A stretch of DNA of 49,795 nucleotides. Source: Candidatus Gastranaerophilales bacterium. Its GTDB lineage: Bacteria; Cyanobacteriota; Vampirovibrionia; Gastranaerophilales; Gastranaerophilaceae. The stretch is from NCBI GenBank assembly GCA_944325025.1, contig CALUYN010000013.1:1-49795 (forward strand). Reading direction: 5' to 3'. This document shows, in pieces, positions 34,189 to 44,108 of the stretch. Made by a program: the position numbers and the translations under genes. Each line of letters begins with the position of its first letter. Position 1 is the stretch's first letter. The notes under the pieces were generated by a model, which was not told the DNA's origin, did no database searches, and saw nothing but the letters and a program-made list of their open reading frames with translations.

Positions 34189-35322
34189 ATGGGAAATTTA
34201 TTGTTGAAAGATAAAGTTTTTGTTACACAGCCGGTTTTACCGGAGTTGTCAGATTTTAATAAATATTTACAAGAAATTTGGCAATCAAAGTGGTTGACTA
34301 ATATGGGTTCTAAACATAATGAACTTGAAAATGAATTAAAGTCAGTGTTAAAAGTCCCTTATGTTTCTTTATTTAATAATGGAACAATAGCTTTGTTAAC
34401 AGCAATTAAGGCGTTAGATCTTCCCTATGGGAGTGAAGTAATTACTACTCCCTTTACATTTGCTGCAACTCCGCACTGTATTGTATGGAATGGTTTAAAG
34501 CCTGTTTTTTGTGATGTAGAACCAGATACTATGACTATCAATGCTGATAAAATTGAATCATTAATTACCCCAAAAACATCTGCAATTGTTGGAGTCCATG
34601 TGTATGGTTTTCCCTGTGATGTAGAAAAGATTGATAAGATTGCTAAAAATTATAATTTAAAAGTCATTTATGATGCTGCACATGCGTTTTCTACAGAAAT
34701 AGACGGCAAAGGTATTGGAGCATTTGGTGATATAACAATGTTTTCTTTTCATGCAACTAAACTATTTAACACAATAGAAGGCGGCTGTTTAACATATAAC
34801 AATCCAGAATTAGTAAAAAAGGTATACAACCTAAGGAATTTTGGTATCAGGTCGGAAGAACTTGTTGAAGATATAGGTATAAATGGAAAACTTGATGAAA
34901 TCCGTTCAGCTGTCGGGCTATTGAATTTAAAAATTTATAAAGAAGAACAAAGAAAACGTGAAAAAATTAGAGAATTTTATAATTCAAGACTTTCAAAAGT
35001 TATTGGTATAAGGATTCCCCAAATGCCCGACAATGTTACTAATTCGTATCAATATTATCCTATCGTAATTGAAGACGATTATCCGATTTCAAGAAATGAA
35101 CTTTATGATAGATTGAAACAAAGAAATATTTTAACAAGAAAATATTTTTATCCGGCTTGTACTGATTATGAATGTTACAAAAATGATCTCGCTGTGAAGT
35201 TAGCAGATTTATCAGTTGTTAACGATATAAAAAATAGAGTTTTATGTCTGCCCTTTTACGGAGCATTACAGGAAAATGAGCTAGCCTATATATGTGAAGG
35301 AGTTGAAAATGCCTGCCAATAG
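34189..35322 (+). CDS. DegT/DnrJ/EryC1/StrS-family sugar-nucleotide aminotransferase
   Basis: 377 residues, full length for these PLP enzymes, which aminate keto groups of nucleotide-linked deoxysugars. The PLP lysine is K191 in FSFHATKLFNTIEGGC; D162 in YDAAHAF pairs with the pyridine nitrogen; WLTNMGSKHNELE and ITTPFTFAATPH are family hallmarks. Likely product: an amino-deoxy-hexose such as Qui4N or a 3-amino sugar; the position cannot be told. First gene of the cluster. It overlaps the next gene by 14 bases, so translation is coupled. No clear Shine-Dalgarno site. Confidence 0.93.
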   Translation: MGNLLLKDKVFVTQPVLPELSDFNKYLQEIWQSKWLTNMGSKHNELENELKSVLKVPYVSLFNNGTIALLTAIKALDLPYGSEVITTPFTFAATPHCIVWNGLKPVFCDVEPDTMTINADKIESLITPKTSAIVGVHVYGFPCDVEKIDKIAKNYNLKVIYDAAHAFSTEIDGKGIGAFGDITMFSFHATKLFNTIEGGCLTYNNPELVKKVYNLRNFGIRSEELVEDIGINGKLDEIRSAVGLLNLKIYKEEQRKREKIREFYNSRLSKVIGIRIPQMPDNVTNSYQYYPIVIEDDYPISRNELYDRLKQRNILTRKYFYPACTDYECYKNDLAVKLADLSVVNDIKNRVLCLPFYGALQENELAYICEGVENACQ

Positions 35323-37771
35323 TAAATTGACAAAATTATATCGTTTAGCAGGAATAAGAGGTCCAATTAAGAATAAGAAATTTTTTGAAGAAGTAAAGAA
35401 CGAATGTTCTAATGAAATTAAACTTCAAGATAATTATGATTTAACAGATTTACAGAATGCTGACAAAGCTATAATATTTCTTATACCTGGAAATAATAAA
35501 ATTTGCGGCGGCATAATGTCCATATATTCACTTTGTGAAGCTTCTAGAAAGTTTAATAAAGATTCTTTATGTATTCTTTCTACATTTCCTAACAGTAAGT
35601 ATACTTATTCAGTCAATAAAACTTTTCCTAATAATGAAAAAATTTATAGATTTTCACAAATTACAAAAAACTGTAAAAATTTGCAGGAAGCTATTGTGCA
35701 TATTCCAGAATATTATGTTAAGTATTTTTATAAAAATTTAAGTGAGGATGATCTTCATTTTTTCAAATCTATAAAAAATTTGCAATTTAATATTTTGAAC
35801 CAAAATATTGATTTAATGCCAAAACCTAAAAAATTGAAAAAATTGCGTAAATTGACAAAAAATATAACTCAAACAATAGCGCATGATCGGTGTGCAACTC
35901 AACAGGTGTGTAACAAATGGGGTATACCTACACATTTGATGTCTGTAAATATCGATGTAAGTAAATATAAGTCATATGATTTTGAAGAAAAAGAAAAAAT
36001 TATTGTCCTTTCAAATGATAAAAATGAACATAAGCTTGGTATAATTAATAAAATTAAACATGAGATGCCGGATTTTAAATTGATAACTGTCCAAAATATG
36101 ACATTTTCAGAATATATGGATTTAATAGCTAAAGCATATTTTACAATTACTTTTGGCGAAGGAATGGATGGATATTTTGGGCAGCCGCATAATGTAGGAA
36201 GTATTGGATTTGCAGTTTATAATGACGGTTTTTTCCCAAATAATGACTGGAGTAATTTATTAAATGTGTATAAGTCTTATAATGATATGTATAACAATAT
36301 CGTTAAAGACATGAAACAATTATTGAATGATAAAGAACTATATTATAAAACGGTAGAGATTGCGTTAAAAAAACAAAATAGTTTGTATAGAATTGATAAA
36401 TTTGAAGATAACGTCAAAAGATTCTACAGAAAAGAATATGATTTTTATCCTAAAAGTTACAAAACATGTTATACAAAAATTGAGAAAAAGGTGATAAATA
36501 TGATAAAAAAATTTTCTATCAAAAATTTAATAGAAAAATTTAAATTGATGCATGATAAATCATTATATATCGGTATTCCTGATGATTTAACATTGCAGTT
36601 GAGTTTTAATAATTATTGTAATTGCAAATGCAAATTTTGTTTTGAAAGTATTGCGAAGACTAAAGAAGAACGAGCTGTAATTCCTGAAAAGTGGTTGTAT
36701 GATGATTTGGTTACATTATATCCAAAAACTGCTAATATAGTTACAACGTATGGTGAGATAACATGTTGTAAAGAGGGGTATGAATTTTTAAATTATATTC
36801 ATAAAAATTATCCTCATATAAATAATTTTATAGAAACAAACGGTATAACTTTTGATGAAAAGTGGGCAGAGTTGGCGTCTGAGAATTTAATGAGGGTTCA
36901 TTTTTCTATTAATGCAATCAATGAAGAATATTTTAAAAAAACTGTTTGGGATAAAGATGGAGTGTACCCGGTTATACAAAAAAACTTTAATAATTATGTA
37001 TCAATGCTCGAAAGAAAAAATCTTTCAGCTTTTAAACCGTCTGTATCTTGTGTTATAAGTTCAGTAAATTATGATACGATAGTTGAATTTGTAAGACAAT
37101 ATGTAAATAAAGGTACGCAGGTTATTGTTTTTTATTTTGAAACTGAAGAAAATGAAACTCTTGCAAATAATGCTGCTAAAAGTACAGCCGTGGAGGATGC
37201 TTTAATAACTCTAATAGAACTTGAAAAACTATTGAAAGGTAAAGTTCAACTGTATTTTAGACTTTTTTCGCCAACAAATAATTTAAACAAATATGATGAT
37301 ATTGTGGCTCAAACGAAAGTTGAAGATTTACAAAGAAAATACCTTGATATTTATGAAATAACAAAAGATTGGGACTTAAAGAAATTGTATCTGGAAAAAG
37401 ACAAAATAAGGAGAGAAAAAGGTAAAAGAGCTTATTCATATTACGAGGAAGTTACAAATGTTTGCTATCATCAAGGTAATGTATGTGGAAATATTATATG
37501 TACTAACCCATGGAAAAACATCAGGATAAGACCAAACGGAGCTTTTGATGTTTGTTCTTGGAGATCCCACAGACAAAATTTGAAAAAATATATTAAAAAT
37601 AATAAAATTGATTTTGAAGCGGTATTTAACAGTTATTTTTATAGAAAGTTAAGAAAAGATTTTCAAAAGAAACGTTATAATGGCTGTATGCCGAATTGTC
37701 CTGGTATGGAAAATATATCTGTCGAAGAATTTAATAACGAGTACGATTTAAATATAGTTGAAAAGGTGTAA
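35309..37771 (+). CDS. Glycosyltransferase-radical SAM/SPASM fusion protein
   Basis: 820 residues from ATG 35309 (AAGGAG at 35297). Residues 1-395 resemble a GT-B glycosyltransferase of the WsaF kind: IIFLIPGNNKICGGIMSIYS, IVLSNDKNEHKLGIINKI and the late ITFGEGMDGYFGQP donor region. Residues 400-820 are a radical SAM enzyme with C437-x3-C441-x2-C444 (NCKCKFC). A SPASM-like C-terminal set of cysteines follows (CYHQGNVCGNIIC, FDVCSW, NGCMPNCPG). At the boundary, AAGGTG (36488-36493) lies six bases before an in-frame ATG (36500, residue 398), so a separate 423-residue radical SAM protein may also be made. What it modifies is unknown; an unusual sugar or acyl modification is inferred from context. 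Confidence 0.82.
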   Translation: MPANSKLTKLYRLAGIRGPIKNKKFFEEVKNECSNEIKLQDNYDLTDLQNADKAIIFLIPGNNKICGGIMSIYSLCEASRKFNKDSLCILSTFPNSKYTYSVNKTFPNNEKIYRFSQITKNCKNLQEAIVHIPEYYVKYFYKNLSEDDLHFFKSIKNLQFNILNQNIDLMPKPKKLKKLRKLTKNITQTIAHDRCATQQVCNKWGIPTHLMSVNIDVSKYKSYDFEEKEKIIVLSNDKNEHKLGIINKIKHEMPDFKLITVQNMTFSEYMDLIAKAYFTITFGEGMDGYFGQPHNVGSIGFAVYNDGFFPNNDWSNLLNVYKSYNDMYNNIVKDMKQLLNDKELYYKTVEIALKKQNSLYRIDKFEDNVKRFYRKEYDFYPKSYKTCYTKIEKKVINMIKKFSIKNLIEKFKLMHDKSLYIGIPDDLTLQLSFNNYCNCKCKFCFESIAKTKEERAVIPEKWLYDDLVTLYPKTANIVTTYGEITCCKEGYEFLNYIHKNYPHINNFIETNGITFDEKWAELASENLMRVHFSINAINEEYFKKTVWDKDGVYPVIQKNFNNYVSMLERKNLSAFKPSVSCVISSVNYDTIVEFVRQYVNKGTQVIVFYFETEENETLANNAAKSTAVEDALITLIELEKLLKGKVQLYFRLFSPTNNLNKYDDIVAQTKVEDLQRKYLDIYEITKDWDLKKLYLEKDKIRREKGKRAYSYYEEVTNVCYHQGNVCGNIICTNPWKNIRIRPNGAFDVCSWRSHRQNLKKYIKNNKIDFEAVFNSYFYRKLRKDFQKKRYNGCMPNCPGMENISVEEFNNEYDLNIVEKV

Positions 37772-37775
37772 AAGG

Positions 37776-38420
37776 TTGAAAAATATATTTTTTATAGGTG
37801 CCGGCGGCTTTGCAAGTGAATGTTATTGTTATTTGCAAGATATAATGAAAGTAGATAAAGATATTATATTTAAAGGTTTTTTGTCAACGAGTAATGACTT
37901 AGCTCAATATGGTTTATCTGATTTATACTTGGGCAGCTATGATGATTATGAATTTCAAGAATATGATTATGCAGTCATAGCAATAGGAACTCCATCAATA
38001 CGAAAACAAATATATTTTATGCTGAAAAAAAGAGGAGTAAAGTTATATACTTTAATATCACCTTATTCTGTGGTTCCTGAACAAAAAAATTTAGGAGAAG
38101 GCTCAATTATAGCTAATTTTGTAACAATTGCTGCAAATGCTAAAATAGGAGTGTGTAATGTAATAAATTCCTTATCGGCAGTAGGTCATGATGTAGAGAT
38201 AAGTAATTTTAATGTCATATCATCTCATGCAGATATTTGCGGAAATACAAAAATTGGAAATTGTAATTTTTTTGGTTCAAGATGTTCAACTTTACCACAT
38301 ACAGTAATTGGAGATAATAATAAAATTGCAGCAGGCAGTGTATTATATAAAAAATACAGAGATAACAACGTAATACAAGGAAACCCTGCTGTTTGTATAT
38401 GTAAAACGGAGGATTTATGA
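37776..38420 (+). CDS. PglD/NeuD-like sugar acyltransferase
   Basis: 214 residues, TTG start at 37776 with AAAAGGTG seven bases upstream; a TTG at 37758 is the alternative. Rossmann-like N-terminus IFFIGAGGFASECYCYL, then a left-handed beta-helix built from hexapeptide repeats (IANFVTIAANAKIGVCNVIN and following). The catalytic His candidate is VGHDVEI and the end is GNPAVCIC. PglD-type enzymes N-acylate UDP/dTDP-4-amino sugars. With two carrier proteins next to it, the donor may be acyl-ACP rather than acetyl-CoA. It overlaps the next gene by four bases (ATGA). Confidence 0.88.
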   Translation: MKNIFFIGAGGFASECYCYLQDIMKVDKDIIFKGFLSTSNDLAQYGLSDLYLGSYDDYEFQEYDYAVIAIGTPSIRKQIYFMLKKRGVKLYTLISPYSVVPEQKNLGEGSIIANFVTIAANAKIGVCNVINSLSAVGHDVEISNFNVISSHADICGNTKIGNCNFFGSRCSTLPHTVIGDNNKIAAGSVLYKKYRDNNVIQGNPAVCICKTEDL

Positions 38421-38650
38421 TAAGAGAAAAAGTCTTAGAAATTTTGATGGAAAACAGACCTGATATTGAAAATATAGAAAATGCGGAATTAGTAAATGAC
38501 GGGTTACTGGATTCTTTTGATATAGTAACACTTGTTACGGATTTGGATAAAGCTTTTGAGATTAACATAGATGGGGCAGATATAACTCCAGAGAATTTTA
38601 ACACAGTAGATTCAATAGTTGAGTTAGTAAAAAAGAACGGAGCAAAATAA
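38417..38650 (+). CDS. Acyl carrier protein 1
   Basis: 77 residues, acidic. NDGLLDSFDIVTLV carries the phosphopantetheine serine S33 (DSF in place of the usual DSL). Size and helices fit an ACP. It overlaps the acyltransferase gene by four bases and is followed by a KAS III, so it is probably a dedicated carrier for this cluster rather than the fatty-acid ACP. Confidence 0.88.
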   Translation: MIREKVLEILMENRPDIENIENAELVNDGLLDSFDIVTLVTDLDKAFEINIDGADITPENFNTVDSIVELVKKNGAK

Positions 38651-38651
38651 A

Positions 38652-39710
38652 TTGCATTTTGAGTTTAAAAATAAAAAAATTACTGGAATATTGACAATAG
38701 TTCCGAAAAATACCGTAAAATTTGATGATGAAATTGAAAATTATAATTTTACAGCAAAACAATCAATGAAATTGAAACTTGTCATGGGATATGATGAGCG
38801 CAGAGTTGCTACAACAGGTGTTTGTTCTTCCGATTTATGTGAATATGGGATGAATTATCTGTTTGATAATAATTTATTAAAAAAAGATGAGGTTGATGCA
38901 TTAATTATGGTAACGCAGTCACCTGATTATTTTATGCCTGCAACTTCCTGTATTTTACATGGAAAATTGGGCTTAAAAAAAGAAACATATTGTATTGATA
39001 TTAATCAAGGATGTGCCGGTTTTATTATAGGTTTAATTCAAGCATTTATGCTTTTGGAGCAAGATACAATAAATAAAGTTGTATTATTAAATGCGGATGT
39101 GTTGAGCCCTAAAATTTCTAAAAAGGATAGAAATTCAGCTCCGCTTGCAGGTGATGCAGCATCTGTAACAATTATAGAAAAATCAGAAGAGTCTTCTAAA
39201 ATTATAGCTGATGTTAATTTTGACGGGAGTAATGCACTATGCTTGAATATTCCTGCAGGAGGGTTTAGAATACCATCAACATCTGAAACTGCTATTATGA
39301 AAGAAGATGAAGCAGGTAATTTGCGATCACTTGATAATCTTGTGATGAAAGGTGACGATGTATTTAATTTTGTTTTAAATAAAGTTCCGGAACAAATTGA
39401 AAATTTGTTGCACTCTGAAAATTTATCGAATGACGATATAGATTATTTTATCTGTCATCAGCCTAATCGGTTTATGCTTCAAAAGTTAGCAGATAAACTG
39501 GGGGTGAGTTACGACAAACTGCCTAATAATATTGTTGAGCATTTTGGCAATGCATCTGGCGTTACAATTCCTACAAATATATCTTTTAATTTAAAAGAGC
39601 AAGATAGAAAATTAAAAGTTTGTTTATCGGGTTTTGGTGTTGGATTAACATGGGCAAGTATGATTTTGGATTTAGATGTGTTAAAATTTAATAAACTTAT
39701 AGAATTTTAA
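38652..39710 (+). CDS. 3-oxoacyl-ACP synthase III (FabH-like)
   Basis: 352 residues with TTG start at 38652 (CGGAGC upstream). Thiolase-fold condensing enzyme with the Cys-His-Asn triad: C121 (DINQGCAGFIIGL), H269 (ICHQPNRFML) and N300 (HFGNASGVTIPTN). It joins an acyl-CoA to malonyl-ACP. Position between two ACP genes and before an SDR suggests it makes an acetoacetyl-type chain for later reduction. Confidence 0.92.
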   Translation: MHFEFKNKKITGILTIVPKNTVKFDDEIENYNFTAKQSMKLKLVMGYDERRVATTGVCSSDLCEYGMNYLFDNNLLKKDEVDALIMVTQSPDYFMPATSCILHGKLGLKKETYCIDINQGCAGFIIGLIQAFMLLEQDTINKVVLLNADVLSPKISKKDRNSAPLAGDAASVTIIEKSEESSKIIADVNFDGSNALCLNIPAGGFRIPSTSETAIMKEDEAGNLRSLDNLVMKGDDVFNFVLNKVPEQIENLLHSENLSNDDIDYFICHQPNRFMLQKLADKLGVSYDKLPNNIVEHFGNASGVTIPTNISFNLKEQDRKLKVCLSGFGVGLTWASMILDLDVLKFNKLIEF

Positions 39711-39724
39711 AAGGAGATTTTTAA

Positions 39725-39937
39725 ATGGATATAAAAAAATTTGAAGAAAACTTAGCGGATATTCTTGATGTTAATGAAATACATGATGATGATGTTTTAG
39801 AAAAATTTGATGAATTTGATTCTCTTGCTATATTGTCAATAATATCAATTATAGGTACAAATTTTTCAAAGACAGTTTCTATTCAAGATATAAAGAACGC
39901 TAAAACAATAAAAGGGCTAAAGGATTTAGTTAAATAA
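39725..39937 (+). CDS. Acyl carrier protein 2
   Basis: 70 residues, acidic, short. FDEFDSLAILSII holds the candidate phosphopantetheine serine S33. AAGGAG precedes the ATG. Its stop codon TAA overlaps the next ATG by one base. A second, divergent ACP in the same cluster suggests two chain-handling steps or two acceptors. Confidence 0.83.
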   Translation: MDIKKFEENLADILDVNEIHDDDVLEKFDEFDSLAILSIISIIGTNFSKTVSIQDIKNAKTIKGLKDLVK

Positions 39938-40683
39938 TGAATAAAGAGTATTTATTAATTACAGGAGCAAGTTCAGGAATAGGAAGGCAGTGTGCAATTC
40001 AACTTTCCAAACAATATAATTTAATATTATGTGCAAGAAGATATGACAAACTTGAAGAAACAAAATCAATGTGTAAAAATCCGCAAAACCATTTAATTTT
40101 TTCTTATGATTTGTCCGATACAGAAAATCTTGAAACATCTCTTATAGATTTTATAAAAATTAATGATATAGTTATAACCAAATTTTTACATAGTGCTGGA
40201 ACTATCGGTTTGCAGTCATTAAAGTTGGTTGATTCTGATTTTATGTTGAATTGTTTAAAAATTAATTTGGTTAGTGCAGAGCTAATTGTTAAAGTTTTGT
40301 CAAGTAAACGTTATAATCAATCAGCTTTAGATTCTGTTGTCTTTATTTCAAGTAATATTTCAAATATGGGTGCAAAAGGGTTTAGTACATATTCAGCATC
40401 AAAAGCGGGATTAGATGGAATGATGAGGAGTTTGGCAATAGAATTAGCTCCAAAAGTCAGGATAAATTCAATTTTACCCGGGGGGATGAAAACAGAAATG
40501 ACAAAAGATATTGACGCAAATGAAGAAGTGTCTAAAAGACTTGAATCTTCATTCCCATTAGGGCAGGGCAAACCTCAATATATTGCTGATGCTGCTGAAT
40601 TTCTTTTTTCAGATAAAGCAAGTTGGATAACCGGTCAGCAATTAACGGTAGATGGTGGAAGAACTATAAATATATCTAGTTAA
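39937..40683 (+). CDS. Short-chain dehydrogenase/reductase (FabG-like)
   Basis: 248 residues. NAD(P) motif TGASSGIG (9-16), catalytic S139, Y152 and K156 (YSASK), substrate-loop end SILPGGMKTEM and C-terminal ITGQQLTVDGG, all as in 3-oxoacyl-ACP reductases. Following KAS III and ACP, it would reduce a 3-oxoacyl-ACP to the 3-hydroxyacyl form. Converges with and overlaps the GNAT gene by eight bases. Confidence 0.92.
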   Translation: MNKEYLLITGASSGIGRQCAIQLSKQYNLILCARRYDKLEETKSMCKNPQNHLIFSYDLSDTENLETSLIDFIKINDIVITKFLHSAGTIGLQSLKLVDSDFMLNCLKINLVSAELIVKVLSSKRYNQSALDSVVFISSNISNMGAKGFSTYSASKAGLDGMMRSLAIELAPKVRINSILPGGMKTEMTKDIDANEEVSKRLESSFPLGQGKPQYIADAAEFLFSDKASWITGQQLTVDGGRTINISS

Positions 40684-41509
40684 TATTATAGTTTTTAGAT
40701 TTAATATTATTTTTTAATTGATAATTTATAAATATGTAGTTTTTTAAACTATCAGAATTAAATCCAAAATATTTATAAAAATTTAAAGCATGCTGATTAT
40801 AAATAATATCAACCCATAAATAACAATACACGTAATTTAATCTCATTAACTCTGAAAAAAAACAATCCCAAAGTTTTATAGTATTTGCAGAAATCCTATC
40901 AAAACTTAAAAACTGATCCAATATAGCTGTTTGCCGACCTTCTGGTTTGTAAATTGCGAATGAAGCAAGTTCTTTATTTGTGTTTCTTACAACTATAATT
41001 TGTTTGTTTGTTATCAAATTGTGAAGATTAGCTTTATCAGGCAAGTGTGAAGCATGATAATCGAATGTGTTGTATAAGCCGTTATAAATTGTATCAATAT
41101 CATCTATATTTGCATATTCAATTTCATCTTCAGAATATGATTTTGTTTTTTTTATTTTTGAAATAGCACACTTCATCCTTTCATATGTTGTATCATATTC
41201 AAGATATTTTGTGAAAATATTATAAAGTTTTTCAGGAAGTTCTTGTTTTGACAACACTTCAAGACTTATAGCTTTATCTTTTGGAAGCTGTTGAAGCAGT
41301 TGTTCAAAATATTCAATGCTTATATAAGCAAAGTATGCCCTGTAAATTTCTTTGTCAGGTTGTAAACATAGAACAGCCTTCTCATTTTCAAGATAATATA
41401 TATCATCATCAAGTGGATTTAAAAAATAATTGGTATTAAAATTTTTAATATCCAATTTTCTTAACTGTGAAAACTTTTCTTTTATTAAAGCAGATTTTAT
41501 TTTTTGCAT
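40676..41509 (-). CDS. GNAT-like acyltransferase
   Basis: 277 residues. The C-terminal half ends in LWVDIIYNQHALNFYKYFGF, the final helix-strand pattern of GNAT N-acyltransferases, preceded by IIVVRNTNKELASFAIY (beta-bulge region). The N-terminal half (about 1-125) is not recognised and may be a second, degenerate GNAT fold. AAAGGAA precedes the ATG. It is on the opposite strand inside the cluster. A role in N-acylating the sugar or another metabolite is inferred. Confidence 0.72.
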   Translation of the reverse strand: MQKIKSALIKEKFSQLRKLDIKNFNTNYFLNPLDDDIYYLENEKAVLCLQPDKEIYRAYFAYISIEYFEQLLQQLPKDKAISLEVLSKQELPEKLYNIFTKYLEYDTTYERMKCAISKIKKTKSYSEDEIEYANIDDIDTIYNGLYNTFDYHASHLPDKANLHNLITNKQIIVVRNTNKELASFAIYKPEGRQTAILDQFLSFDRISANTIKLWDCFFSELMRLNYVYCYLWVDIIYNQHALNFYKYFGFNSDSLKNYIFINYQLKNNIKSKNYNIN

Positions 41510-41566
41510 TTTATATATTTCCTTTTAATATATTTATTATAGAATAAAAACAGGAAAGAGTATAAT

Positions 41567-42517
41567 ATGGAAAATTTATTAACAGTAAATGTTGTAACTT
41601 ATAACCATGCAGAATATATAAAAGAATGTCTGGATTCTCTATTGAGCCAGGAAACAAATTTTGGATATATTATTAGAATATTTGATGATTGTTCAACTGA
41701 TGGTACAACGGAAATATGTCAACAATATGAGGAAAAATACCCTGATAAAGTATTTCTTTTCCCAAATAGCGTCAATGAAAATTTACATAATTGTATAAGA
41801 TCTTATGAAAATATAAAAACTAAATACTATATGTATATAGAAGGTGATGATTATTGCTGTGATAATTCTAAATTTCAAAAACAAATTGATATTTTAGAAG
41901 CACATCCGGAGTATGTTTTTTGTGCACATAATACAAAAATATCTGGCGGTAATTTAGGACGTGAGATAAGTAAAAGACAGGGTGAATATGAACCTCTTGA
42001 TGAAGGTGTGCTTATTGAGAAAAATTTTATTTCTCCTCATATATCATCCAAAATAGTAAGAACCGAATGTATAAAGATTGATAAAGATAATCCCAAACCT
42101 TATTTATTTGATGCCACTCAAACAATGATACAGCTTATGCAAGGTAAAGCTTACCATATAGGTAAGACGATGACTGTTTATAGAGTATCTTTGAAAGGAT
42201 GTTTTTCAAGTTTGGATTATCTGCATAAAATAAAACGTTTTAAGTCTGAGTTATTAAATTTTAATGAATATACTAAAGGAAAATATGAACCGCTAGTCAT
42301 AAAATTAATTGCAGCTCAAACAATGTTTTATATAATGTCTGAGTGTAAGGCAAATAAAGGACATGAAAAAATATTTTATAATTTGAGAAATGTTAACAGT
42401 CGAAAAGCTTTGAAAAGATATTTATTTCCATTATTTGTAACTGATATATTGAATTTACCAAGGGATATAATAAGACTAATAAAAGAATATTATATTTCTA
42501 AACAAGTAAAAAATTAA
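41567..42517 (+). CDS. Family 2 glycosyltransferase
   Basis: 316 residues, GT-A fold. N-terminal TVNVVTYNHAEYIKECLDSL, FDDCSTDGTTEI (nucleotide-binding DD at 40-41) and EGDDYCC with the DxD-like metal site at 92-95. No membrane segment until the C-terminus, which is basic. It would add a sugar to a growing glycan, perhaps the modified amino sugar made by the neighbouring genes. GGAAAGAG precedes the ATG. Confidence 0.9.
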   Translation: MENLLTVNVVTYNHAEYIKECLDSLLSQETNFGYIIRIFDDCSTDGTTEICQQYEEKYPDKVFLFPNSVNENLHNCIRSYENIKTKYYMYIEGDDYCCDNSKFQKQIDILEAHPEYVFCAHNTKISGGNLGREISKRQGEYEPLDEGVLIEKNFISPHISSKIVRTECIKIDKDNPKPYLFDATQTMIQLMQGKAYHIGKTMTVYRVSLKGCFSSLDYLHKIKRFKSELLNFNEYTKGKYEPLVIKLIAAQTMFYIMSECKANKGHEKIFYNLRNVNSRKALKRYLFPLFVTDILNLPRDIIRLIKEYYISKQVKN

Positions 42518-42528
42518 TATGAATTAAG

Positions 42529-44031
42529 TTACAATAATGTTTTTAATTTCAATCTGTCAATTTTACCATTATTATTAACTGGTAATTTGTCAATTTTTCT
42601 CAAATCAGTAGGGATCATATATTTTGGAATAGATTTTCCGAGATATAGGATTAAATCTTTATTAGAAATTTCCTTATCTGATTCATAAAATAATACTATT
42701 TTTGAGTTTTTTTGATCATAAACAACGCAAACATTTTCTAATTCCTGAATTGCACCTAAAGCTGTTTCAATTTCACCGAGTTCAATACGGTATCCCATGT
42801 GTTTAATTTGAAAATCTTTGCGTCCCTGAAAGATAATTTCCATATTTTCATTATAATAAACTATATCTCCGGTACGGTAAATCCTTTCAGGATAGTGTTT
42901 ATTCAATGGATTTTGTGTAAAAACTTTTTCGGTTTTGTCAAAATCATTATAATAGCCTAATGCAAGTGATGAGCCTCTCACACACAGTTCGCCTGGAATA
43001 TTTGGTGTTGTAACAAGTTTATCTTTATCATCTAAAATTAAGACATCAGAATTTTTACATTTTTTACCTATAGGCAAGGGCTCGTCATCTTTGAATTTTC
43101 TATCAACTGTATAAAAGGTACAATCAACAGTAATCTCTGTAGGTCCGTAAAGATTTGAAAATAATGCATCAGGATAATATTTTATCCAATAATTTAACTG
43201 TTTTGTCGGCATTACTTCACCTGCAAATAATATTTTAGTAAAATCAGGTTTACAGGTTTTTAGAATATCCATATTTGCTATATTTACAAGAATAGATGGA
43301 ACAAAGAAAAACATGTTGACTTTTTTTTCTTTAAAATATTCCATCAATTTAATAGGGAATATGAATAAAGATTCTGGAGTGATTATGAGTTTACATGCAT
43401 TTTTTAATGTTAAATAGATATCTAAAACAGAATTGTCAAAATAAAATGGTGCTTGATTACCTATTATGTCATTTTCAGTAATTTTATATTCATTGCTTGC
43501 CCATTCAATGTAATCAATGATAGATCTATGAGAAATTAGAACACCTTTTGGAACTCCTGTTGACCCTGAAGTGTTTATAATATACGCACCATCTGTATCA
43601 ATTAATTCTTTATATCTGGTTTTGTGTGAAGAAGCGGTTTCTATAATATTTTCATATATTAAAATATCCCCATTATAGTCTAGTTTGCAGAGTTTATCAT
43701 AGTTAGCTTTGTCTGTAATAATTAATGCAGGATTTATATTATTAATTATTCCCTGTATCCGTTCTTGAGGATTTTTTACATCAAGAGGCATATAAATATT
43801 ACCTGAATATAAAATGCCCATAAAAGCAGCTAGAGCGTTTACAGATTTATGTAAAAATACACCTATAGGTTTTTGGAGTTCTGAAATGTTGCAGCATATA
43901 TTAGTTGAAATATTTTTAGCTAGATTACTAAATTCTTTAAATGTCATAGAGCATGATGCATCTTCAAATCCTAATTTATTTGGATATTTTTCTACTGTAT
44001 TTTCTAAATATTCAATGACATTAATTAACAT
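42529..44031 (-). CDS. AMP-forming acyl/amino-acid ligase (adenylation domain)
   Basis: 500 residues from ATG 44031; GGAG is seven bases upstream and overlaps an alternative TTG at 44043. ANL-family motifs in order: TSGSTGVPKG (154-163), YGPTEITVDCTF, GELCVRGSSLALGYY, YRTGDIVYY, GRKDFQIKHMGYRIELGEIE, PVNNNGKIDRLKLK (the A10 lysine). It is a stand-alone NRPS-type domain, most like DltA. It would load an amino or carboxylic acid onto a carrier protein; the ACPs in the cluster are the obvious partners. Confidence 0.9.
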   Translation of the reverse strand: MLINVIEYLENTVEKYPNKLGFEDASCSMTFKEFSNLAKNISTNICCNISELQKPIGVFLHKSVNALAAFMGILYSGNIYMPLDVKNPQERIQGIINNINPALIITDKANYDKLCKLDYNGDILIYENIIETASSHKTRYKELIDTDGAYIINTSGSTGVPKGVLISHRSIIDYIEWASNEYKITENDIIGNQAPFYFDNSVLDIYLTLKNACKLIITPESLFIFPIKLMEYFKEKKVNMFFFVPSILVNIANMDILKTCKPDFTKILFAGEVMPTKQLNYWIKYYPDALFSNLYGPTEITVDCTFYTVDRKFKDDEPLPIGKKCKNSDVLILDDKDKLVTTPNIPGELCVRGSSLALGYYNDFDKTEKVFTQNPLNKHYPERIYRTGDIVYYNENMEIIFQGRKDFQIKHMGYRIELGEIETALGAIQELENVCVVYDQKNSKIVLFYESDKEISNKDLILYLGKSIPKYMIPTDLRKIDKLPVNNNGKIDRLKLKTLL

Positions 44032-44108
44032 ATTGCTCTCCAACTATCACATACTCATTAAATTTATTATATAATAAAAATTATTTTACAATACAAACTA
44101 AAGATATA

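Follow-up and report, generated by a model that had tools for sequence, protein, structure and literature searches.

What is made by a ten-gene block that places an amino acid adenylating ligase, two small carrier proteins and a condensing enzyme among sugar-modifying genes? The block lies at positions 34189–44043 of a 49,795-nucleotide stretch from Candidatus Gastranaerophilales bacterium (assembly GCA_944325025.1, contig CALUYN010000013.1), and this whole stretch is referred to here as the window. A sequence-only reading had proposed a dedicated acyl carrier protein (ACP) pathway that supplies the acyl group of an N-acylated amino sugar, and this proposal is supported by our analysis. We consider it likely that the product is an amino sugar carrying an amino-acid-derived N-acyl group. 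The chances are close to even for the full scheme, in which a beta-ketoacyl-ACP synthase III (KAS III) extends a primer bound to the first carrier (ACP1) with malonyl units held on the second (ACP2). All ten genes named in the sequence-only reading are present at their place, partly by Pfam and NCBIfam matches and partly by structural models:

34189..35322, + strand, DegT-family sugar aminotransferase (PF01041, E 9e-100), probably for 4-amino-4,6-dideoxyhexose synthesis
35309..37771, + strand, fusion of a glycosyltransferase (GT; fold match) with a radical S-adenosylmethionine (SAM) enzyme (PF04055)
37758..38420, + strand, PglD/VioB-like N-acyltransferase (PF17836 PglD_N, PF00132)
38417..38650, + strand, ACP1, DltC-like carrier protein (PF00550)
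38652..39710, + strand, KAS III with Cys-His-Asn triad (PF08541/PF08545)
39725..39937, + strand, ACP2, second carrier protein (PF00550)
39937..40683, + strand, FabG-like ketoreductase of the short-chain dehydrogenase/reductase (SDR) family (PF13561, E 1e-39)
40676..41509, - strand, GNAT acyltransferase with a tandem fold (AlphaFold model and Foldseek)
41567..42517, + strand, GT2-family glycosyltransferase (PF00535, E 1e-17)
42529..44043, - strand, DltA-like amino acid adenylating ligase (TIGR01733)

The gene set is not a chance grouping, since it recurs in other genomes. A closely related KAS III was found in ten more loci (five loci in one scan and six genomes in another, one of these being the genome of locus L021). 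By tblastn, ACP1 lies directly upstream and ACP2 directly downstream of KAS III in all 11 loci, the window included, and a DltA-like ligase lies within the fetched stretch in nine of them. In the genome of L019, a separate contig (L043) carries a tandem of three ligases with identities of 73, 64 and 48%; the L020 genome has only a partial one, 38% identical, at a contig end. In a phylogenetic tree, the 11 KAS III sequences form a single clade (support 100/100) apart from 17 other sequences, namely 14 from relatives' genomes, one additional KAS III each from L019 and L020, and the other KAS III of the window genome; L014 (same two genes as L003), L016 (internal stop codon) and L001 (the window itself) were left out of this tree.

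The distribution of the clade follows that of the ligase. Some KAS III is found at 1e-40 in 12 of the 194 relatives of the window genome (itself included), and the only clade member among them is the window's own, which scores 783.8 bits vs 227.5 for the next. A ligase at 1e-100 is likewise found in 1/194, the same genome that has the clade KAS III. Among 296 Eudoraea relatives (the Eudoraea genome included), KAS III (at 1e-85) and the ligase (at 1e-90) are found in the same six, so that at the cut-offs used both genes co-occur in the same 7/490 sampled genomes; these genomes are related and the counts are not independent. A phylum sample that overlaps the first gave KAS III in 1/386, again the window's own. 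As a control, five wide loci with other KAS III types (L047–L051) were compared, and none has an ACP1 match or a close ligase (L048 has only a 22% ligase match). The gene content, the intact active-site motifs, the linkage of ligase, ACP1, KAS III and ACP2, and the variation of the insertion site described below are direct observations. Because it co-occurs with this KAS III in the same genomes, the ligase belongs to the system. The sequence-only reading had noted that the ligase was not part of the systems known to it, a view that we correct: it probably supplies the primer.

The ligase scores 322.3 bits for amino acid adenylation (TIGR01733), over the cut-off of 317.4, and falls below the cut-offs for DltA (TIGR01734, 301.9 vs 559.85; NF003417, 312.6 vs 476). 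Its ten specificity positions were numbered from PheA, in which we take the equivalents of Asp235 and Lys517 to bind the alpha-amino acid. Both this Asp and this Lys are kept in 12/12 aligned cassette ligases (the alignment leaves out the partial ligase of L044), and Glu replaces Asp in a distant paralogue, L045. Five substrate codes occur among the 12: DNLSLALVDK in four ligases, including those of the window and of L039 (53% identical to the window's), DMLSLGMGTK in the five Eudoraea-type ligases, and other codes in the remaining three, two of which are one residue apart. Such codes, kept in divergent enzymes and differing within the tandem of one genome, point to distinct amino acid substrates; to our knowledge, DNLSLALVDK matches no known substrate code. 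The tandem itself (L043:2429-8017, in the rabbit genome of L019) consists of three DltA-like ligases with three different codes beside a GNAT gene, and may be a switchable set. The paralogue in the goat genome (L045:8013-9542) is a second adenylating ligase whose neighbors are membrane proteins and a small protein resembling a carrier; the group may be a Dlt-like operon.

Intact motifs are also seen among the other proteins. The carrier serine is residue 33 in each ACP, by alignment (all 11 ACP1 and 7/11 ACP2) and in the sequence itself, as had been read before. ACP1 matches PF00550 at the cut-off (20.8 bits), with DltC-like NCBIfam matches below theirs. The window KAS III keeps its Cys-His-Asn triad and matches both Pfam halves. 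The SDR carries the YxxxK motif, and its counterparts are 51% identical in L018, 56% in L042, and 71 and 70% in L019 and L020, the last two over 145 residues only. The PglD-like protein is over the gathering scores of PF17836 (27.4 vs 23.4) and PF00132 (41.7 vs 27) and below the cut-off of TIGR03570 (NeuD/PglB/VioB type; 142.6 vs 160.8 bits); its best solved relative is VioB (7txp, E 3.5e-17). For DegT, the best NCBIfam model is DesI, at 284 bits below the cut-off of 650, and homologues 70–76% identical occur in L046, L047, L096, L098 and L099. Since RmlB is also encoded in the window genome (over its cut-off), with DegT nearest to DesI and the PglD-like enzyme nearest to VioB, we take 4-amino-4,6-dideoxyglucose or its galacto epimer as the probable sugar of the cassette. 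The best solved matches of DegT include QdtB, which we take to be a 3-aminotransferase, and a 3-amino sugar may thus be the alternative product. The GNAT protein alone has no Pfam match; its homologue in L042, 26% identical, matches PF00583 (E 3.8e-11), and the AlphaFold model of the window GNAT (mean predicted local distance difference test score, pLDDT, 89) matches solved GNATs by Foldseek, including WecD, MshD and glycine N-acyltransferase.

We infer every reaction of the pathway, along with its substrates, the carbon-carbon extension and the final glycan, from these gene facts and the known chemistry of the families. The ligase would adenylate an alpha-amino acid and load it onto ACP1, where the GNAT would acylate the aminoacyl amine and so prevent premature lactam formation. 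Following this capping, KAS III would take the acyl-aminoacyl group from ACP1 and condense it with malonyl-ACP2, giving a 4-acylamino-3-oxoacyl-ACP2 whose ketone would be reduced by the SDR to a statine-like 4-acylamino-3-hydroxyacyl-ACP2. DegT would make the nucleoside diphosphate (NDP)-activated 4-amino-4,6-dideoxyhexose from dTDP-4-keto-6-deoxyglucose, and the PglD-like enzyme would transfer the 4-acylamino-3-hydroxyacyl group to the amine of this NDP-sugar. The GT half of the fusion, the GT2 enzyme, or both would then attach the sugar to a surface glycan. Generalized to the family, the idea is that a free-standing KAS III extends an N-capped amino acid on a DltC-like carrier by a carbon-carbon bond to yield statine-like gamma-amino-beta-hydroxy acyl groups for surface sugars, with a ligase that can be swapped to bring in another amino acid, and as a plug-in cassette that moves between gut Gastranaerophilales and marine Bacteroidota; we put this forward tentatively, at somewhat less than even probability.

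The genes around the core in other loci are informative for this scheme. Locus L042 has on one strand, in order, a sugar-phosphate transferase, ligase, GNAT, ACP1, KAS III, ACP2, two SDRs (38% and 56% identical to the window's), a metallo-beta-lactamase fold protein, PglD and DegT; this single row contains eight enzyme types that the window also has. Its genome is presumably from Bacteroidota, since it was drawn as a Eudoraea relative; the genome of L039 was drawn in the same way. In L039, a formyltransferase lies between ligase and ACP1, the slot that the GNAT takes in L042, and such a swap is expected if the aminoacyl amine needs capping. L019 has a formyltransferase as well; L018 encodes an acyltransferase resembling AAC(3), and reading of L019 revealed a protein similar to it in sequence. 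The common theme of these variable neighbors is acyl transfer to an amine.

Several further features of these loci were recorded. On the goat contig (L018/L046), the cassette has a metallo-beta-lactamase fold protein next to it as well as the AAC(3)-like acyltransferase, and an ATP-grasp enzyme and an ornithine cyclodeaminase-family enzyme lie near DegT. A protein of ~160 amino acids, with no Pfam family over cut-off, is encoded once or twice a short way ahead of the Eudoraea-type ligase (L021:7221-7709, L038:11925-12948, L040:10297-11330, L041:6592-7077). Around the core of L019 lie another KAS III, additional carriers and several SDR genes (L019:8709-12034), which would suit a longer chain; two of its SDR genes look split in the assembly. 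The KAS III of L020 (L020:1261-2244) is without ~25 residues, including the stretch around 36–55, and may not work.

Several observations weigh against the scheme set out above. An N-[(R)-3-hydroxybutyryl]-L-alanyl product can be drawn from the same genes without KAS III being primed from ACP1. In the window, the ligase gene is on the opposite strand. Outside the core, the set is patchy, with a PglD-like gene in 8/11 KAS III-clade loci, an SDR in 5/11, a GNAT in 4/11 and DegT in only 3/11, so that the Eudoraea-type loci must either make something else or use enzymes encoded elsewhere; no PglD-like match was found on the goat contig L018/L046. Identity to the window proteins is low in L042 (25% for DegT, 36% for PglD and 26% for GNAT), and these three enzymes may serve another sugar there. 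The goat genome has a second, differently coded ligase (L045) that scores 6.5e-109, which means that the ligase cut-off alone is not specific. At the positions that we take to contact coenzyme A (CoA) in FabH, residues are changed in the KAS III clade but also in most other KAS III enzymes, and these changes thus do not show an ACP-bound primer. Finally, WecD is among the fold matches of the GNAT, which could therefore act on the sugar.

The most serious competing explanation, although an unlikely one in our estimate, joins two acyl lines by an amide: KAS III, ACP2 and the SDR would make 3-hydroxybutyryl-ACP2 from acetyl-CoA, the ligase and ACP1 would provide aminoacyl-ACP1, the GNAT would join the two, and the PglD-like enzyme would transfer the resulting 3-hydroxybutyryl-aminoacyl group. 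This gives a job to nearly every window gene except the radical SAM half of the fusion, the fold matches of the GNAT include glycine N-acyltransferase, and the kind of product is known, as N-[(R)-3-hydroxybutyryl]-L-alanyl on 4-amino-4,6-dideoxyglucose (PMC3210612). However, L039 and five Eudoraea-type loci keep ligase, ACP1, KAS III, ACP2 and PglD without a GNAT or SDR match, and control loci that lack such a ligase have KAS III enzymes outside the clade. A primer from ACP1, as in the scheme with carbon-carbon extension, is favored because the linkage of KAS III with ACP1 and the ligase persists in loci with neither an SDR nor a GNAT match.

Those six loci without an SDR match (L021, L022, L038–L041) would suit a different route, in which acetoacetyl-ACP2 from KAS III acylates alanyl-ACP1 and an aldol ring closure places a 3-hydroxy-2,3-dimethyl-5-oxoprolyl group on the amino sugar. 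This route would use an amino acid and a four-carbon unit and no SDR; the route is our own proposal rather than one from the literature, and PMC3210612, under Plesiomonas, describes this kind of group as a substituent of Qui3N. We regard it as improbable: the window, L018 and L042 all have an SDR that it does not need (those of L018 and L042 being the 51–56% identical ones), and no cyclase was identified, the ~160-amino-acid proteins by the Eudoraea-type ligases having no Pfam family over cut-off. There is also only a slim chance that the block is a plain viosamine-type island, with KAS III, ACP2 and the SDR making a 3-hydroxyacyl group for PglD and the ligase and ACP1 serving an unrelated product. 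The gene kinds are those of vioA, vioB, vioS, vioR and acp of Pseudomonas syringae (PMC3927599) and of L047 in a relative, yet the shared occurrence of KAS III and ligase in 7/490 genomes and the position of ACP1 next to KAS III in every one of the 11 loci argue otherwise. Finally, a small pathway like those of nonribosomal peptides and polyketides could be built from the ligase, both carriers, KAS III and the SDR, with amino-acid-primed polyketide lines known in antibiotics (PMC11284099) and no PglD-like match in the fetched stretch of L018, L019 or L020, but a free or lipid-linked small molecule with the sugar genes as mere neighbors is doubtful in view of the PglD-like gene in most clade loci, the PF02397 sugar-phosphate transferase near the cassettes of L021 and L042, and the DegT-GT pairs with different tails in relatives, one of them at the same pnuC site.

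The sequence-only reading had also suggested a surface or flagellar glycan and had counted a radical SAM step in the cluster. The flagellar target was rejected: flagellin (PF00669) has no match in the window's own genome, which is 91.5% complete, and a control was matched in 4/14 genomes. As for the radical SAM step, no evidence links the radical SAM half of the fusion to the acyl pathway. The GT-B-like half covers residues ~1–410 and the radical SAM half, with SPASM/twitch-like cysteines, ~415–820. The GT half has no Pfam match; its model (pLDDT 78.5) matches solved glycosyltransferases with a best TM score of about 0.5, and it is found in 11/194 relatives including the window, the match stopping at the GT part in the other ten, alone or in other large frames. 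The radical SAM half matches PF04055 (E 1e-11), with a CxxxCxxC motif at residue 437 and C-terminal cysteines, and by sequence is closest, weakly, to NifB and SkfB chains. An in-frame query with this half found no close relative in 22 other loci compared (best 22%, E 7e-4, L019). An assembly artefact is an unlikely explanation of the fusion, which is a single open frame of 820 codons, though seen only in the window. Deamination of the DesI/DesII type was rejected as well (DesI 284 vs 650; none of the seven NCBIfam models matching the fusion is DesII). A different radical SAM/SPASM gene, unlike the window's half, adjoins a DegT-GT pair in L098 (L098:11431-12465), suggesting that some radical SAM chemistry may accompany this sugar.

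The higher AT content that had been noted for the block was confirmed: GC is 28.2% in the block vs 35.6% in the rest of the window, and GC at third codon positions is 13–24% vs 31–35% in five flanking genes. The genes are compact, the overlaps of 1–14 bases claimed earlier being measured as 14, 14, 4, 1 and 8. A second AT-rich patch (window:6001-8000, 27–28% GC), with a small helix-turn-helix-like protein near and proteins of unknown function, indicates that low GC alone is not special to the block.

In the window, the genes flanking the block are uvrA and pnuC. In the sister species G033 (L097), nothing lies between these two, and the gene order beyond pnuC is the same. In another sister species, G026 (L096), a DegT (76% identical) and a GT (54%) precede pnuC and are followed, in place of the acyl genes, by a WbqC-family gene and a gene without a Pfam match. 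Other genes follow the DegT-GT pairs of L047, L098 and L099 too. Across this lineage, then, the DegT-GT head reappears with tails that can be exchanged, and the window's block has the behavior of a mobile unit. Of 34 genomes of the genus, 33 have pnuC; among the 30 pnuC loci examined (29 from other genomes, with three further matches left out), uvrA lies within 1.5 kb in only one (L064, G033), and the evidence for the empty site thus comes from a single species. The lateral transfer proposed from base composition is thus supported by one empty site, one different tail in a sister species, and a KAS III clade held in common with named Bacteroidota. The nearest named records with the cassette come from Gastranaerophilales bacteria of the Lapin (rabbit) isolates and from a goat colon bacterium. 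No relative of the KAS III was found in the viral contigs scanned (three stretches).

In the Dlt system, a DltA ligase works with a DltC carrier, and the cassette resembles it in pairing a stand-alone adenylating ligase with a small dedicated carrier. It differs in that the window ligase and carrier are below the DltA and DltC cut-offs and the carrier adjoins KAS III. The Dlt system itself was rejected, given the low DltA score and the lack of any DltB match (TIGR04091) in the window's own genome, a control being matched in 3/14 genomes. The flagellar glycosylation locus of Campylobacter jejuni has similar parts, among them FabH2 and ACPs, an enzyme that activates an amino acid, DegT, an SDR and a transferase of PglD-like type. 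These parts serve flagella there; by its gene content, the locus may be the nearest described case. AcpP2 is named for this locus in PMC3749442.

The window brings together DegT, a PglD/VioB-like protein, KAS III, an SDR and an ACP, the set that marks viosamine-type islands. The viosamine island of P. syringae, seven open reading frames given as vioA/vioM/vioT/vioS/vioB/vioR/acp, likewise uses DegT, PglD/VioB, KAS III, ketoreductase and ACP for an N-acyl 4-amino-4,6-dideoxyglucose (PMC3927599). Its seven frames include one ACP, and no ligase is listed among them, whereas the window has two ACPs, a ligase linked to KAS III, and a GNAT; the island also acts on flagellin (PMC3927599), and no flagellin gene was found in the window genome. 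In the wfpC–wfpG genes for the O-polysaccharide of Flavobacterium psychrophilum, two KAS genes, an ACP, a reductase and a PglD homologue predicted to acylate a 4-amino sugar provide a 3,5-dihydroxyhexanoyl group, and the acyl genes vary between strains (PMC6519341). The chain there is without an amino acid, and no amino acid ligase is noted in the passages considered. Vicenistatin-type lines do place an amino acid starter unit on a carrier-bound chain, but they make macrolactam antibiotics from beta-amino acid starters (PMC11284099), whereas the window has a free-standing KAS III beside sugar genes. The suggestion that the combination may be undescribed thus stands in part. Sets of KAS III, ACP, SDR and PglD for N-acyl sugars are in print (PMC3927599, PMC6519341), and it is the ligase with its dedicated carrier, linked to a separate KAS III clade, that was not found described in our searches of the open-access literature. 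In the same literature, no amino-acid-primed KAS III and no such ligase in a polysaccharide cluster was found, only the starter units of antibiotics (PMC11284099).

Varied acyl groups on surface amino sugars change antigenicity (PMC6519341), and the cassette is probably a variant of this established bacterial means of diversifying surface sugars. The described KAS III sets that we found for surface sugars build the acyl group from acetate units; a ligase-fed line, if true, would open the amino acid pool to them. Acyl structure would then be predictable from the adenylation code, and the cassette would provide a small two-carrier KAS III system in which primer choice is directly testable. The amino-acid-primed reading accounts for an adenylating ligase that otherwise looks misplaced in a glycan cluster from an uncultured gut lineage.

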